From positions 2,790,001-2,854,000 of the forward strand of contig NZ_JACHMY010000001.1 in the NCBI RefSeq assembly GCF_014205135.1: a DNA stretch of 64,000 bases, read 5' to 3'. The DNA is from Kribbella italica. GTDB lineage: Bacteria > Actinomycetota > Actinomycetes > Propionibacteriales > Kribbellaceae. A program made the translations under genes and the position numbers. Position 1 is the stretch's first letter, and the number at the start of each line of letters is the position of its first letter. Positions 13,896 through 43,171 of the stretch are shown here, piece by piece. The notes beneath the pieces were generated by a model. The model was not told the DNA's origin, made no database searches, and was given only the letters and a program-made list of their open reading frames with translations.

Positions 13896-14872
13896 TCAGG
13901 CGCCGCTGGAGGTGAGTTCCGAAGCGGCGATGGTGCCGTCGATGACGCTGCTCGCGACGGCGCTGAGCTGTTCATGGTTGCGTCGAGCATAGGCCCGCAT
14001 CAGCGCGAACGCGTCGTCGACGCCAACCCCGGCCCGCTCGGACAACACGCCTTTCGCCTGCTCGAGCAGGATGCGGCTGTTGAGCGCGGACTGGAGCTGT
14101 TCGGCCAGCACTTCGCCTCGGCGCACGGTGCGTTCCTGAAGCATGCCGACGGTCGCGATATCGCAGAGCGCCTGCGCCAACGAGATGTCGGCGTCGCTGA
14201 GGGTGACGCGGTCGACGCAGAACAGGTTGAGCGCCCCGATCACCCGACCGCGCAGGCGCAGCGGTATGGCGTGGGTGGACCGGTACCCCGCGGCTGCCGT
14301 CGCGGCGCGGAATCAGGGCTGTCGGCGGCTTCGGCGAGCTGCGGATGCAGCCCGTCCGGCGACGCGTCGTACTGCAGGTCCAGCAGTATGGTCGTCGCAG
14401 CGGCCGCGTAGTCGAGTGCTTCGCCCAGCTGCAGGCTGTCCAGCGGACCTGGAACGTCGCGATAGAGGTCGAGTACGCCGAGCCGGATGGCGCCGACCTG
14501 AAGCGGGAACGCGAAGACTGCTGCGATCCCCGATTCGGAGGCAGCGGGAGCGAAGGCCGGCCAGCGCGCTGCGGCCCGGGCCAGGTCGTGCTCGAGGACT
14601 GGGCGCCGGTCACGAGAGGCGTTCAGGCACGGGCCTTCGCCAAGGGTCTGCTGCAGGTTCTCCATCACTTCGGCCGGCCCTGCGGTGGCGGCGAGGGTGC
14701 CACCGTGGCCTGTCGGTGTCATCAGCGCAACGCCTGCTCCGCTGACCGGTACCGACTTTGTTGCCGAAGCACACAATCTCGTCCAGGCCGTAGAGCCGTT
14801 GAGGCCAGGCGGGTCGGGCTGGGCGACGGAGAGCACCTCGAGCAGGATCTGCCGCACGCGCAGTGATGCCAT
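13896..14872 (-). pseudogene. Frameshifted chimera of two GAF-ANTAR genes
   Basis: Two frames make up this locus. The upstream frame (ATG 14872, stop 14240) encodes a complete GAF domain but, where an ANTAR helix should follow LDLQYDASPDGLHPQLAEAADS, it changes abruptly. The downstream frame continues from about 14307 with FRAATAAAGYRSTHAIPLRLRGRVIGALNLF, the second half of another GAF domain, then a complete ANTAR domain (LEQAKGVLSERAGVGVDDAFALMRAYARR). One base is missing between the frames. Even with it restored the product would be GAF plus half-GAF plus ANTAR. I read this as an internal deletion joining two tandem genes. Alternatively the downstream part is translated from the GTG at 14243, which overlaps the TGA stop (GTGA). 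Confidence 0.75.
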
Positions 14873-14927
14873 TGCCTCACATCCCCAGACGGGCACTCGA
14901 TGGAGCGCCGCCGGGGGCTCGGGCAGC
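14873..14927 (-). promoter_or_regulatory. Conserved leader element, copy 4
   Basis: Reads GCTGCCCGAGCCCCCGGCGG, then GCTCC, upstream of the ATG at 14872; distance from the first base to the start codon is 55 nt. A 7-bp hairpin (GGCGCTC with GAGTGCC) follows the core. It is the most diverged of four copies and lies downstream of a SigB/SigF-type promoter, so it should be transcribed as the 5' leader of the GAF-ANTAR locus. Confidence 0.5.
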
Positions 14928-14946
14928 GACAGTGATGATGACGTAG

Positions 14947-14970
14947 TACCCCTCGGGGTCGTCGCAAAAC
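14947..14970 (-). promoter_or_regulatory. SigB/SigF-type promoter for the GAF-ANTAR locus
   Basis: On the minus strand, GTTT (14970-14967), a 15-bp spacer and GGGTA (14951-14947) match the GTTT-N15-GGGTA consensus of SigB/SigF-family holoenzymes in actinobacteria. A fitting sigma gene lies at 20593-21426. Transcription should start near 14940, just before the leader element. Confidence 0.6.
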
Positions 14971-15057
14971 TGCGCCGAAACTTGTGCGGGCCGCGAGATC
15001 TTCCGAGGGAACGCTTGTATTGTCGTTGGCGGGTTCGCCGGTCCGATGGCCGGCGAC

Positions 15058-15114
15058 GCTGCCCCAGACCTAGGCGGCACACCTCCGTGTGTTGTCGAAG
15101 GACCTGGGGTGCAG
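15058..15114 (+). promoter_or_regulatory. Conserved leader element, copy 1, with fold over the ribosome site
   Basis: Begins GCTGCCCCAGACCTAGGCGG and ends at the base before the ATG at 15115 (57 nt). The transcript can fold: CTGC and CCCCAG pair with CTGGGG and GCAG next to the start codon (one bulged T), and inside that GGCGGCACAC pairs with GTGTGTTGTC around a CTCC loop. The outer stem covers the GGGG that would act as ribosome site, so a translational switch is possible. Confidence 0.5.
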
Positions 15115-15561
15115 ATGTCCACGAGACCGATTTCGATTCAGGGTGCGGCTGCGGCTTCCCCCATGGCCGTGCAGAAGCAGGTCACGGGCGACACTCGGCA
15201 GCAGACGCCTCAGATCACCGTCCAGGTCGCCGACGGCATGATCGTCGTCGCCGCGACCGGCCGGATCGGCCGGTTCGTCGCCGCGGAGCTGCGCGACGAC
15301 CTGCTCCAGATCTGGCCGGCCTGCGCAGGAATCCTGGCCGTGGACCTTTCGGCCTGCACCTACCTCAGCGTCGATGCCGTGCGCACCTTGCAGGAGATCT
15401 GGCGCCGCCCCACCCGCGCGGGCGGCGAACTCCGCGTCCTGGCCAACCATCCCGACGTCGTCACAGCTCTCGACGACGCCAACATTCCTCGGATCCGCGC
15501 CAGCGGCAGTTCTGCTCGCCGCGGCTCGCCGTTCGCCACCAGCACCGCTGCGCCGAGCTGA
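15115..15561 (+). CDS. STAS-domain protein (anti-sigma-factor-antagonist-like)
   Basis: A 148-residue protein. A flexible N-terminal 40 residues precede a STAS domain (about 40-130) with ITVQVADGMIVVAATGRIG, the central strand ILAVDLSACTYLSVDAVRTL, whose Ser after YL occupies the usual phosphorylation site region, and GGELRVLANHPDVVTALDDANI. STAS proteins of this kind bind anti-sigma kinases and free SigB/SigF-type sigma factors; such a sigma factor lies 5 kb away. An in-frame ATG at 15046 would translate the leader element, but the start at 15115 fits the domain better. Confidence 0.8.
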   Translation: MSTRPISIQGAAAASPMAVQKQVTGDTRQQTPQITVQVADGMIVVAATGRIGRFVAAELRDDLLQIWPACAGILAVDLSACTYLSVDAVRTLQEIWRRPTRAGGELRVLANHPDVVTALDDANIPRIRASGSSARRGSPFATSTAAPS

Positions 15562-26224: not shown

Positions 26225-26860
26225 CTAGTGGTACTCCGACTGAGCCCAGCTGCTGTGACGGCGTTTGATCAGTGGTCGCTGGTCGCAGCCGGTCTTCTCG
26301 GTCGTCGCGAGTTCGCGCAGGCATGAACACAGCAGCGCCAGTACCCGAGCCGGCGACAGCCTCAGGAGCTGCGCGACGTCGACGTAGCTGTGATCGCCGG
26401 CCATCACCAACGCGATCGTGGCGCGTTGCTGCCGGGACAGCTCCTTCAGTTTGGTCATCGCAACGACAGCCCCGGCCGGGCCCGCGGGCATCCCCGAGAT
26501 GTCGGCTACCGCGGGCAGGCGCTGAACACAGTGCAGGTAAGTACGCCGGGCCAACTCGAGCCGCAGGCTCTTGTCCCCAAGGAGGTCGACGGACTCCGTG
26601 CACACCTGAACGATGACGTCGGCAACTACTGCCTCCGCCTGGTCACCGTCGCGCAGGATCGCCAACGCCAACTGCAGCAATGCAGTGCCGTGGCGATCGA
26701 AAATCTCCCCGGCCGCCTCGTCCTGACCGCTTTGTGCCGCCGCTACCAGTGTCACTTCCTGCGATCGCGAGAGCACCGCCGCAGAGGGCTCGGGATGCGA
26801 TGCGCGGCCGTGCATGCGCCGACTCAAAACCTGGGTGTTGCCTTGCAGGGCGAGATGCAT
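26225..26860 (-). CDS. ECF-like sigma factor, atypical
   Basis: A 211-residue protein. The middle carries a region-2-like stretch (AGEIFDRHGTALLQLALAILRDGDQAEAVVADVIVQVC). The C-terminal half has a region-4-like helix-turn-helix (LKELSRQQRATIALVMAGDHSYVDVAQLLRLSPARVLALLCSCLREL). The match to ECF sigma factors is clear in pattern but degenerate in the promoter-binding residues. The ATG at 26860 has AGG 7 nt upstream; an in-frame GTG at 26941 would translate the leader element. Confidence 0.75.
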   Translation of the reverse strand: MHLALQGNTQVLSRRMHGRASHPEPSAAVLSRSQEVTLVAAAQSGQDEAAGEIFDRHGTALLQLALAILRDGDQAEAVVADVIVQVCTESVDLLGDKSLRLELARRTYLHCVQRLPAVADISGMPAGPAGAVVAMTKLKELSRQQRATIALVMAGDHSYVDVAQLLRLSPARVLALLCSCLRELATTEKTGCDQRPLIKRRHSSWAQSEYH

Positions 26861-26929
26861 GAGGCACCTGACTCTCGGTGGGCTGTCGCTCCGGGTCCTG
26901 CCTGGAGTACCGCCGAGGTCTGGGGCAGC
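26861..26929 (-). promoter_or_regulatory. Conserved leader element, copy 2
   Basis: Begins GCTGCCCCAGACCTCGGCGG with TACTCC following, and ends with GAGAGTCAGG before the ATG at 26860 (69 nt). The GAGAGTCAGG end is shared exactly with copy 3. It lies about 40 nt downstream of the predicted transcription start, so it would be RNA. Confidence 0.5.
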
Positions 26930-27673: not shown

Positions 27674-27696
27674 CGTCGCCCCAGCCCCCGGCGACG
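27674..27696 (+). terminator. Hairpin after the SRPBCC gene
   Basis: CGTCGCC and GGCGACG form a 7-bp stem around a C-rich loop, 50 bp past the stop at 27623. No T run follows. The rest of the 260-bp gap to 27885 shows no coding sequence I can support. Confidence 0.35.
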
Positions 27697-27884
27697 CTTC
27701 GTGTCACACGTTGAATCGGCGCAGAGGTACCACGCAGCCGAATCGGGGCTCGACTGTCGCCGCGATCTGGCCGCCTCGAGCCGCGCTGCCGCGGCCACCG
27801 TCTCCCAGGCGCTTCGAGCACAGCCCGTCACAGTCGGCAGTGCAAGGGCCGGGAACCGCAATCGGCCCGCGAGGGTGACTATCG

Positions 27885-41378: not shown

Positions 41379-42224
41379 TCATTCCGGCTCGTACTGCTGC
41401 CGTCCATAGCGCCGCCGGCCCTGTCCTCTGCTTCGGAGTTGGGCGGCGTCGTACGCGGGAAGCCGGCGGGTCTCCACGACGCGGCGGGCGACGTCGCGCA
41501 GCTTGACGTTGGCATCCTGGGAGTAGCGCCGGAGGACCGCGAACGCCTGGGCCGCGTCCATCCCGAACTGGGACATCAAGATCCCCTGCGCCTGACCGAC
41601 CACAGTGCGTGCCTCCATCCCTCGGGTCAGGGTCGCCGCCTGCTGGGCCGAATCGATCGCGATGGCCGTGTGGCAGGCGAGCAAGTAAGCGACCGCGTTG
41701 TCCGCAACGGCCAGCCGGCCGGGGCTGGTCGAGCAGAAGTTCAGGAAACCCAGTTCCGATCGAGCGGTCGACAGGCGGATGCTCAGCAGGCTTCTCAGCC
41801 CGATCCGGGCGACCCGCGGCCCCCACCGCGGCCAGTGGGGATCGTCGACGGCGTCCTGGATCAGAATGCTGCGCGGTGCCGAGCCGTCCGGCTGCCACGG
41901 GCCCTCGCCGGTAATGACCTGCAGTTCGACGGCTGCTGCGAAGCGCGGATCGCAGATCCCGACCGGGTGACACCGGCTCCTGTCATCGCGAAGCATGACG
42001 CCGGTGAAGTCACAGGGAACGATTTCGTGGGCGAACCGCAGAACCCGGGAGACGGTCTCGTCGAAACCGGGCGCGTTGTGGAGATCCATCGCCAGCAGAC
42101 CGAACCCTGCTGCGTGGGCACGTTCGGAGTCCACAACTGGTTGATCAGGTGTCTCGGTACGGCGCGGGGGCCGCGTGCTGCTGGTCGGGGCTGAAAGCTC
42201 CGCGCGGTCGCGGGTGATCTGCAT
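41379..42224 (-). CDS. GAF and ANTAR domain signalling protein
   Basis: A 281-residue protein. An N-terminal extension of about 50 residues (rich in Ser, Thr, Arg) precedes a GAF domain (GFLNFCSTSP near its end, IRLSTARSELGFLNF) and a C-terminal ANTAR domain (VVGQAQGILMSQFGMDAAQAFAVLRRYSQDANVKLRDVARRVV). ATG at 42224. It carries copy 3 of the leader element, so its own leader may be a target of ANTAR-type control. Convergent with the CGNR gene. Confidence 0.88.
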   Translation of the reverse strand: MQITRDRAELSAPTSSTRPPRRTETPDQPVVDSERAHAAGFGLLAMDLHNAPGFDETVSRVLRFAHEIVPCDFTGVMLRDDRSRCHPVGICDPRFAAAVELQVITGEGPWQPDGSAPRSILIQDAVDDPHWPRWGPRVARIGLRSLLSIRLSTARSELGFLNFCSTSPGRLAVADNAVAYLLACHTAIAIDSAQQAATLTRGMEARTVVGQAQGILMSQFGMDAAQAFAVLRRYSQDANVKLRDVARRVVETRRLPAYDAAQLRSRGQGRRRYGRQQYEPE

Positions 42225-42287
42225 CGGCCTGACTCTCTGGGGAACACTCCCTGTAGTGCGTGGAGTGCCGCCGGGGTCTGGGGCAGC
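42225..42287 (-). promoter_or_regulatory. Conserved leader element, copy 3
   Basis: Begins GCTGCCCCAGACCCCGGCGG with CACTCC following; CACTCC can pair with GGAGTG (6 bp) and the end is GAGAGTCAGG as in copy 2. Distance to the ATG at 42224 is 63 nt. Confidence 0.5.
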
Positions 42288-42296
42288 ATCACAACG

Positions 42297-42310
42297 GTCC
42301 TCGAGAGGAC
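42297..42310. promoter_or_regulatory. Inverted repeat upstream of leader element
   Basis: GTCCTC-N2-GAGGAC, 10 bp before copy 3 of the leader element. A possible operator; no promoter boxes are clear here. Confidence 0.3.
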
Positions 42311-42343
42311 TTGCGCGTGCGGTGGCGAGATCGAGCGGTGGGA

Positions 42344-43171
42344 CTACTGCGGTTTGGTCGACAGCAGCGGGAGGCCGGTGCCGTTCTCCAGCGGGTTGCC
42401 CGGGTAGTTGTAGAACTTGCCGGGCTTGCTGCCCTTCTTGCCGAAGCCGACCCCGACCTCCTCCAAGGCGCGCAGCGCGTCGCCGCCCGTCTTCTGGAGG
42501 AAGGACTCGAAGCCTCTGTCGTTCGGGGCGTTGACGACGGGCGCGCCGAGCTTGCCCTGCGCGTCGCGGGCCAGGGCCCGGTGCACGGCTTCGGTTCCCA
42601 GCGCCTCCGCGCACAGCCGGGCACCGAAGGCGTCACCGTGACGGGCAGCCGAGGTCACGCCGACGAGATAGGCGCTGATCTCGATGTCCTCGTCCTTCTC
42701 GATCGACTGGAACAGGCCGGCGCCGCCCTTGCCGAACAACTCCTCCGGGATCCAGATGCGGGTGGCGATCGGCTCGCCGCCGACCCGCTGCAACCCTCGG
42801 AGGTGGTAGTACTCCGAGGTGTTGGCCGACTTCAGCACCGGCAGGAACTTCGCCGACGGCGTGCCGGGAGCGCGGCGTACGGCTTCGCTCACGAAGGTCA
42901 CGCCGAAGACCTCGAAGGTCGCCAGCACCGACTTGATCCGGTGCATGGAGTCGGCACGGCTGGACTTGCTGTCCGAGACGTTCGTCGCCGCGAGTGCAGG
43001 AGTCGCGGCGGAGGCGAGCAGCGCCCCACCACCAACCGCTGCCAGGGCCTTGCCGGCCCGGTCCAGCAGAGCTCGCCGCGTTCGGGTATGCGGGACGGCA
43101 GCGTCGAAGGCCTCCTCCACGGCGGCGTAGTCCCGCGCCGTGACCGGTCTGACTTCGTTGGTATCGGACAT
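42344..43171 (-). CDS. Secreted ferritin-like domain protein
   Basis: A 275-residue protein. An N-terminal RTRRALLDRAGKALAAVG twin-arginine-like signal is followed by ALLASAATPALA, so Tat export is likely. The mature part resembles ferritin-like (DUF4439-type) proteins, with long helices and Glu/His residues (NTSEYYHLRGLQRVGG, FQSIEKDEDIEISAY). Iron or oxygen chemistry is inferred from the fold only. First of a same-strand group with the hemerythrin-hydrolase and the cupin. Confidence 0.82.
   Translation of the reverse strand: MSDTNEVRPVTARDYAAVEEAFDAAVPHTRTRRALLDRAGKALAAVGGGALLASAATPALAATNVSDSKSSRADSMHRIKSVLATFEVFGVTFVSEAVRRAPGTPSAKFLPVLKSANTSEYYHLRGLQRVGGEPIATRIWIPEELFGKGGAGLFQSIEKDEDIEISAYLVGVTSAARHGDAFGARLCAEALGTEAVHRALARDAQGKLGAPVVNAPNDRGFESFLQKTGGDALRALEEVGVGFGKKGSKPGKFYNYPGNPLENGTGLPLLSTKPQ

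Follow-up and report, generated by a model that had tools for sequence, protein, structure and literature searches.

Positions 14873-15114 of the window (the whole 64-kb stretch of Kribbella italica DNA that was analyzed) lie between the start codons of two divergently oriented genes, an intergenic region with one copy of a conserved element for each. A pattern scan of the window with the core GCTGCCCCAGACCYMGGCGGYAC returned three copies without mismatches and one with three mismatches, but no match in 100 shuffles, bearing out the four copies claimed in a previous sequence-only reading. Counting from the first base of the core, the start codon is 57, 69, 63, and 55 nt away in copies 1 to 4, respectively, in agreement with the range of 55 to 69 nt given there. 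That reading was also right that GAGAGTCAGG is common to copies 2 and 3, and that copies 1 to 3 are in frame with their own genes while copy 4 is out of frame. The features of the window are listed below. Bit scores are those of the covariance model R2, of which all four copies are seeds.

13941-14102, minus strand: ANTAR part of the broken GAF-ANTAR gene, in another frame than the GAF part (ANTAR match)
14240..14872, minus strand: GAF part of the same frame-broken gene (GAF_2, E 7.8e-7)
14873..14927, minus strand: copy 4 leader RNA, to the start codon (fold)
14905..14927, minus strand: copy 4 core, leader of the broken GAF-ANTAR gene (3 mismatches; 45.2 bits)
14946..14970, minus strand: SigB/F-type promoter-like site GTTT-N15-GGGTAC, upstream of copy 4 (sequence)
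15058..15080, plus strand: copy 1 core, leader of the STAS gene (0 mismatches; 47.1 bits)
within 15058..15080, plus strand: copy 1 P1 hairpin, GCUGCC-loop-GGCGGC
15058..15114, plus strand: copy 1 leader RNA, to the start codon (predicted to fold, with P2 CACAC/GUGUG and the core pairing with the SD region)
15115..15561, plus strand: STAS-domain gene, carrier 1 (PF01740, E 3e-7 on the longer ORF 15046-15561)
26225..26860, minus strand: ECF-like (degenerate sigma) gene, carrier 2 (Sigma70_r4_2, E 0.0014, weak and under the cut-off; family alignment)
26861..26929, minus strand: copy 2 leader RNA, to the start codon (fold)
26907..26929, minus strand: copy 2 core, leader of the ECF-like gene (0 mismatches; 34.9 bits)
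41379..42224, minus strand: GAF-ANTAR gene, carrier 3 (ANTAR, E 6e-20, and GAF_2, E 6e-7, on the longer ORF 41379-42614)
42225..42287, minus strand: copy 3 leader RNA, to the start codon (fold)
42265..42287, minus strand: copy 3 core, leader of the GAF-ANTAR gene (0 mismatches; 44.1 bits)

Over positions 13941-14872 (minus strand), the GAF-ANTAR gene is split by a frame change that places its GAF and ANTAR parts in different frames. Its homologues in other Kribbella genomes (L013, L024, and L152) look intact, and two of them lie behind a short ORF. Positions 27675-27700 (plus strand) were considered as a further copy and rejected, with an E-value of 0.015 for model R1 but 0.5 for model R2 and no good ORF.

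Two covariance models were run on 38 Kribbella genomes: R1, made from 12 seeds with hairpin P1 only, and R2, made from 17 seeds with hairpins P1 and P2, the P2 loops being shortened for modelling. In the genome of K. italica (8.89 Mb, one contig), seven sites lie within three mismatches of the core pattern, and the covariance models bring the count to at least eight members. Besides the four in the window, at least four occur elsewhere, at the following genome positions.

7803581 and 7808213: members before SigB/F-type sigma genes
2489906: member before a second ECF-like gene
1220286: member before a fatty-acid desaturase gene

Seven weaker matches in this genome (L169, L172, L182-L184, L186, and L187; 14.6 to 22 bits) were discarded by eye as chance-like or as lying within or opposite coding sequence. 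An ECF-like gene of the same genome (L050, G000:C1:2489957) seems to start with ATT, aligned with the ATG of its homologue in G017.

R2 yielded 49 matches at E ≤ 0.02, spread over 31 of the 38 Kribbella genomes; the other seven had no R2 match at E ≤ 0.1. Seventeen matches are the seeds themselves, and the other 32 come from outside the model, some having already been seen with R1. The context of every match was inspected, and each of the 49 is the leader of a gene from one of a few classes, assigned by eye from homology and in agreement with Pfam on example carriers (PF00487, PF03861 with GAF, PF01740, and sigma regions, with weak matches for the ECF-like genes). The larger classes are desaturases (30), GAF or GAF-ANTAR genes (8), ECF-like genes (5), and STAS genes (2). 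Single matches precede an ECF sigma gene, a SigB-type sigma gene with a short ORF in between, a delta9-type desaturase gene, and a 46-aa ORF heading an operon with two GAF-ANTAR genes. Enrichment of the element in relatives ahead of GAF-ANTAR, STAS, and ECF genes had been named beforehand as a check, and the 49 matches answer it positively. A conserved leader element common to signalling genes is supported, with a wider carrier set than was first thought, as it extends to desaturases and SigB-type sigma genes.

With R1, we inspected 76 among the matches listed for Kribbella, down to an E-value of 0.846; 35 stand before a plausible start codon and were kept, and 41 were dropped as chance or as lying inside coding sequence. 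The collected set of 61 members consists of these 35, of 25 from R2 in Kribbella, and of one in G050, a genome of another family of the order. Most of the Kribbella rows that R2 gave between E 0.02 and 2 are outside the set. Start codons were picked by eye for L013, L020, L152 (short ORF first), and L050 (ATT), and, as TTG, for the ECF gene of G017 and for some desaturases. One collected member (L029, in G014) precedes a gene without a Pfam match. In G008:C5 and G035:C9 (L031, L141, L127, and L149), desaturase genes stand in tandem at a spacing of about 2 kb, and each has an element of its own. A record named Streptomyces sp. SID13031 (L106/G027) falls among the Kribbella genomes of the collection.

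A search that started from the protein turned up 14 ECF-like genes in 11 of the 38 Kribbella genomes. Eight have a clear element, one has a degenerate one, and five have no recognizable element, so that the link between element and gene is strong but not absolute. By eye, the ECF-like genes of L262 and L263, which lack the core, keep a C-rich/G-rich complementary stretch that reaches the SD. A degenerate sigma-like family (ICDRHGAALFSLA...) with weak sigma region-4 matches comprises the gene at 26225-26860 (minus strand) of the window and those of L050, L063, L199, L201, and L253. Its proteins may mimic sigma factors in partner switching, like PhyR. In L201 (G272) and L012 (G017), the ECF-like gene and a SigK-like ECF sigma gene are divergently oriented, and in G272 the SigK-like gene is followed, by eye, by an anti-sigma-like gene. 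From position 2353493 onward in G017 (L191/L012), an ECF-like sequence and a GAF-ANTAR domain share one long frame, either as a fusion or through a frameshift.

Outside Kribbella, the element was sought by matching the exact core pattern against the genome collection (84,980 species); 23 stretches were returned, two of them in Kribbella. Eleven of the 21 non-Kribbella stretches were inspected: three are Streptacidiphilus leaders, seven lie in or opposite coding sequence, and one (L091) was left unjudged. In the three Streptacidiphilus species, the element is found exactly 51 nt before a STAS gene (Pfam STAS, E 2.3e-13 in one of the three). Their loci (L087, L103, and L105) hold three, three, and two copies, respectively, 49 to 51 nt before the ORF start. 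The genes of the array are an intact STAS gene, a degenerate STAS-like ORF without a Pfam match, and a further ORF, which codes for a DUF3040 protein in L103, and each has its own copy. A gene with a sub-threshold ANTAR match is located nearby in L105.

A scan of the order gave 24 rows at E ≤ 0.1, from 21 of 109 genomes (nine rows inspected), and a scan of the class gave 18 rows at E ≤ 0.02, from 17 of 393 genomes, own excluded (all rows inspected). Both are about twice the nominal chance number, the E-values being rough. Leaders of the expected genes were found in G050, where the element precedes a STAS gene and an ECF-like gene (L155/L197 and L199), and in G272, from another family of the class, where it precedes both of two close ECF-like genes, 49 nt from the start (L201). 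L214 is doubtful, and the remaining inspected matches outside Kribbella look like chance. The core is conserved in at least three actinobacterial families.

The conserved core is 21 nt long and can fold as hairpin P1 (GCUGCC-[CCRGACCYN]-GGYRGC), whose loop of 8 to 9 nt is mostly CCRGACCYN. In the best register, P1 is formable with six pairs in 65 of 70 unique members. Its covariation is slight (27/2000); P1 of L024 has one G-C to A-U change, and in the Streptacidiphilus copies the change of A11 to C goes with U to C opposite, i.e., it is not compensatory. Hairpin P2 lies directly 3' of the core, with no linker between P1 and P2, in 66 of the 70 unique members. Its loop is variable and its stem occurs in 30 distinct forms, such as CACAC/GUGUG, GCAUC/GAUGC, and CACUCC/GGAGUG, or CGUC/GACG versus UGUC/GACA among the Streptacidiphilus copies. 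In 100 shuffles, P2 was found in 47.2 of 70 members on average and in 55 at most, and its mean score was 4.11 in the members versus 1.90 in the shuffles (maximum, 2.45). A hairpin just 5' of the core, P0, is present in several classes (e.g., GCCAC..GUGGC before desaturases), but once the main desaturase class is left out, its mean z-score over the other 30 members was just -0.95, and for that reason we do not claim it as conserved.

At equilibrium, P1 is predicted to be close to zero; the predicted ground state is instead a longer hairpin that joins the core, across P2, to the SD region (e.g., GCCCCA/UGGGGC). The mean pairing probability of this SD-sequestering fold exceeds 0.5 in 55 of 61 members (24 of 30 outside the main desaturase class). 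The fold was obtained in 26% of cases after shuffling of the 3' part and in 63% with 3' parts from other classes, the latter because core/SD complementarity is largely a matter of shared sequence, with a C-rich core and a G-rich SD. The predicted duplex between the core and the SD region was more stable for native than for swapped partners (-17.5 versus -15.2 kcal/mol; 0/2000 permutations, n = 59), and a coding control gave -10.1 kcal/mol (n = 30). The same swap test gave no signal within the desaturases (776/2000, n = 29), a modest one within the other 30 members (23/2000), and insignificant values with narrower windows (226 and 504 of 2000). Whole-hairpin chimeras were less stable than the native hairpins (0/5000 permutations, n = 30 and n = 59); of the 30 members from outside the main desaturase class, only 17 have a native hairpin below their own chimera mean. 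The folding energy of the leaders is only mildly unusual, with a mean z of -1.87 for the 61 members and -0.91 for those 30, and z is below -2 in 31 of 61. Most desaturase leaders have very stable stems, of about -23 to -36 kcal/mol. As P1 and P2 can form and the predicted ground state is the core/SD hairpin, we propose two mutually exclusive folds, which may interconvert.

We also considered at which level the element might act. The core is located 50 to 69 nt from the chosen start codon in 60 of the 61 members, 59 of them at 50 to 63 nt, and at 90 nt in one. Among the 30 members that do not belong to the main desaturase class, 15 have a GGTAY promoter-like motif upstream, versus 4.7 in shuffles, at a variable distance of 14 to 61 nt from the core. 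The top enriched upstream 6-mer is GGGTAC, which we take to be the -10 of SigB/F-type promoters (10 of the same 30 members versus 0.8 expected). With these motifs upstream, the core should sit within the transcript and be tied to the start codon, and the narrow distance to the start codon combined with a variable distance to the promoter motif fits an mRNA-level element. We consider it probable that the element is a cis-acting mRNA leader controlling the translation of coordinated stress-signalling and membrane-lipid genes in soil actinobacteria.

A site acting in DNA, either the operator of a common regulator or its downstream promoter element, with incidental RNA structure, would account for the GGGTAC motif of those 10 members, some of which are probably co-regulated at the transcriptional level as well. 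It is nevertheless quite improbable, given the two distances, a P2 that stays paired through its 30 stem sequences, and the pairing of the core with the SD region. An upstream peptide or N-terminal extension (AAPDLGGTP) had been put forward as a rival in the sequence-only reading, and copies 1 to 3 are indeed in frame with their genes without a stop; none of the 31 desaturase leaders has an in-frame stop. Over the 61 members, however, the core falls 21, 23, and 17 times in the three frames relative to the gene, and such randomness implies that the element is not a peptide. Outside the main desaturase class, the frame of the core runs into a stop ahead of the gene in 9 of 30 members, and in 15 it shows no upstream start codon before a stop; a start is also missing in 7 of the 31 desaturase members. 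The peptide was rejected on these counts and is extremely improbable. The random frame, the stops, and the missing starts also differ from the conserved open frame with a start codon of a leader-peptide attenuator, which was discarded.

Two other explanations place the control in the RNA itself. In a riboswitch, like the dauA candidate, the RNA would bind a small molecule or ion stabilizing one fold; a highly conserved core beside a P2 helix of varying sequence and an SD within the predicted fold speak for it, and a Streptomyces STAS-leader RNA with a three-stem junction including the SD is described in PMC11109978. The element is small (about 50 nt), however, and no obvious metabolite pathway is common to the sigma-like, STAS, GAF-ANTAR, and desaturase carriers, which makes a riboswitch unlikely. 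An RNA thermometer, whose SD hairpin would melt or refold with temperature, agrees with the predicted SD-sequestering hairpin and with desaturases as targets (31 of 61 leaders). It appears improbable, since the core is kept over at least three actinobacterial families, presumably beyond the need of a melting hairpin, and since the stems of most desaturase leaders are so stable.

Comparative analysis documents the conservation of the element, its position, its association with genes, the persistence of P2 through many sequences, and a predicted native core/SD pairing that overall exceeds that of chimeras; the interconversion of the two folds, the direction of the switch, and its effector are what we infer. 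In the translational leader that we favor, the core would be followed by P2 and then by the SD region, with the start codon about 50 to 63 nt from the core. In the OFF state, the core would pair across P2 with the SD region, hiding the ribosome-binding site and leaving P1 unformed. In the ON state, P1 and P2 would be formed or captured and the SD released. As the ribosome-binding site is predicted to be hidden, the folded leader probably switches the translation of its carrier genes on and off together.

Thirteen of the 31 desaturase leaders, including that of our own genome, begin 58 to 94 nt after the stop of a gene with an ANTAR signature, these genes being recognized by signature and one of them by Pfam. 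GAF-ANTAR genes are themselves carriers, two of them follow in line after the 46-aa ORF, and 13 ANTAR matches over the cut-off were found in the K. italica genome. On gene linkage only, a GAF-ANTAR RNA-binding protein is the leading candidate for the effector. The ANTAR link suggested earlier thus holds for gene neighborhood but not for a canonical double-hexaloop target: none of 59 unique leaders has two A1/G4 hexaloops, as the earlier reading had noted of the classic pair, and 9 of 59 have at least one versus 7.9 in shuffles. We therefore rejected a canonical ANTAR-target RNA; as such hexaloops are not enriched, the element may act in the manner of an ANTAR target, though we do not class it among them. 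A tentative and rather doubtful extension is that GAF-ANTAR proteins capture P1/P2, freeing the SD of their own genes and of the sigma, sigma-mimic, STAS, and desaturase genes. This would define a hexaloop-less ANTAR RNA class and a translational stress regulon across several actinobacterial families.

Actinobacteria are rich in GAF-ANTAR and STAS/sigma regulators, and little is known of what these regulators target and how they are wired. A shared, recognizable RNA switch before exactly these genes, if real, would show which genes are controlled together, link membrane desaturation with the sigma network, and offer a concrete RNA substrate for orphan GAF-ANTAR proteins.

Regarding known systems, Rfam 15 matched one tRNA elsewhere in the window and left the element unmatched, and over 13 member loci its matches were unrelated and far below gathering scores. 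In RNA thermometers of the ROSE/fourU type, a leader hairpin hides the SD, as is predicted here, but the element has in addition a conserved core and a second hairpin over families and gene classes. The SigB/F-type partner-switching regulons resemble the carrier set in their STAS, sigma, and GAF-domain genes and in the GGGTAC-type upstream motif; their known regulation, unlike that proposed for the element, is protein-protein and transcriptional. A leader RNA common to SigB/F-type regulators was not found in the literature searched, with the dauA motif as one close conceptual relative.

As in ANTAR-target RNAs of the EutV/NasR/AmiR type, two stem-loops can form in the leader, but P1 is near zero in the predicted ground state; ANTAR genes are carriers of the element or the carriers' direct neighbors. 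ANTAR targets are defined by two hexanucleotide loops with A at position 1 and G at position 4 (PMC8164766, PMC3369931, PMC8934654). The actinobacterial ones are described as two stem-loops in the leader, about 37% of them overlapping the RBS or AUG (Mehta and Ramesh 2021, PMC8164766), and as needing a linker of 2 to 25 nt (PMC8164766). In contrast, the element has no A1/G4 hexaloop enrichment and no linker, and it has a strong primary-sequence core. 'Kribbella' and 'desaturase' are absent from the main text of PMC8164766.

The dauA motif (SRC-36-1) is described as a riboswitch candidate with 57 representatives in Streptomyces, upstream of STAS genes, with the SD inside a three-stem junction (PMC11109978, 2024). 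STAS leaders with the SD in the structure are found in Streptacidiphilus, Kribbella, and G050 and are a minority of the carriers. Alifold of eight Streptacidiphilus copies gave upstream hairpins and an SD hairpin without a clear junction, and three Streptomycetaceae plasmid STAS genes (one in Streptantibioticus and two in Embleya) had no recognizable element. Unlike the Streptomyces STAS leaders of that description, the carriers of the element are mostly not STAS genes and its genomes are mostly Kribbella. Both are SD-containing structured RNAs directly upstream of STAS genes, and the element, compared by description only, may be an extension of the published dauA motif.
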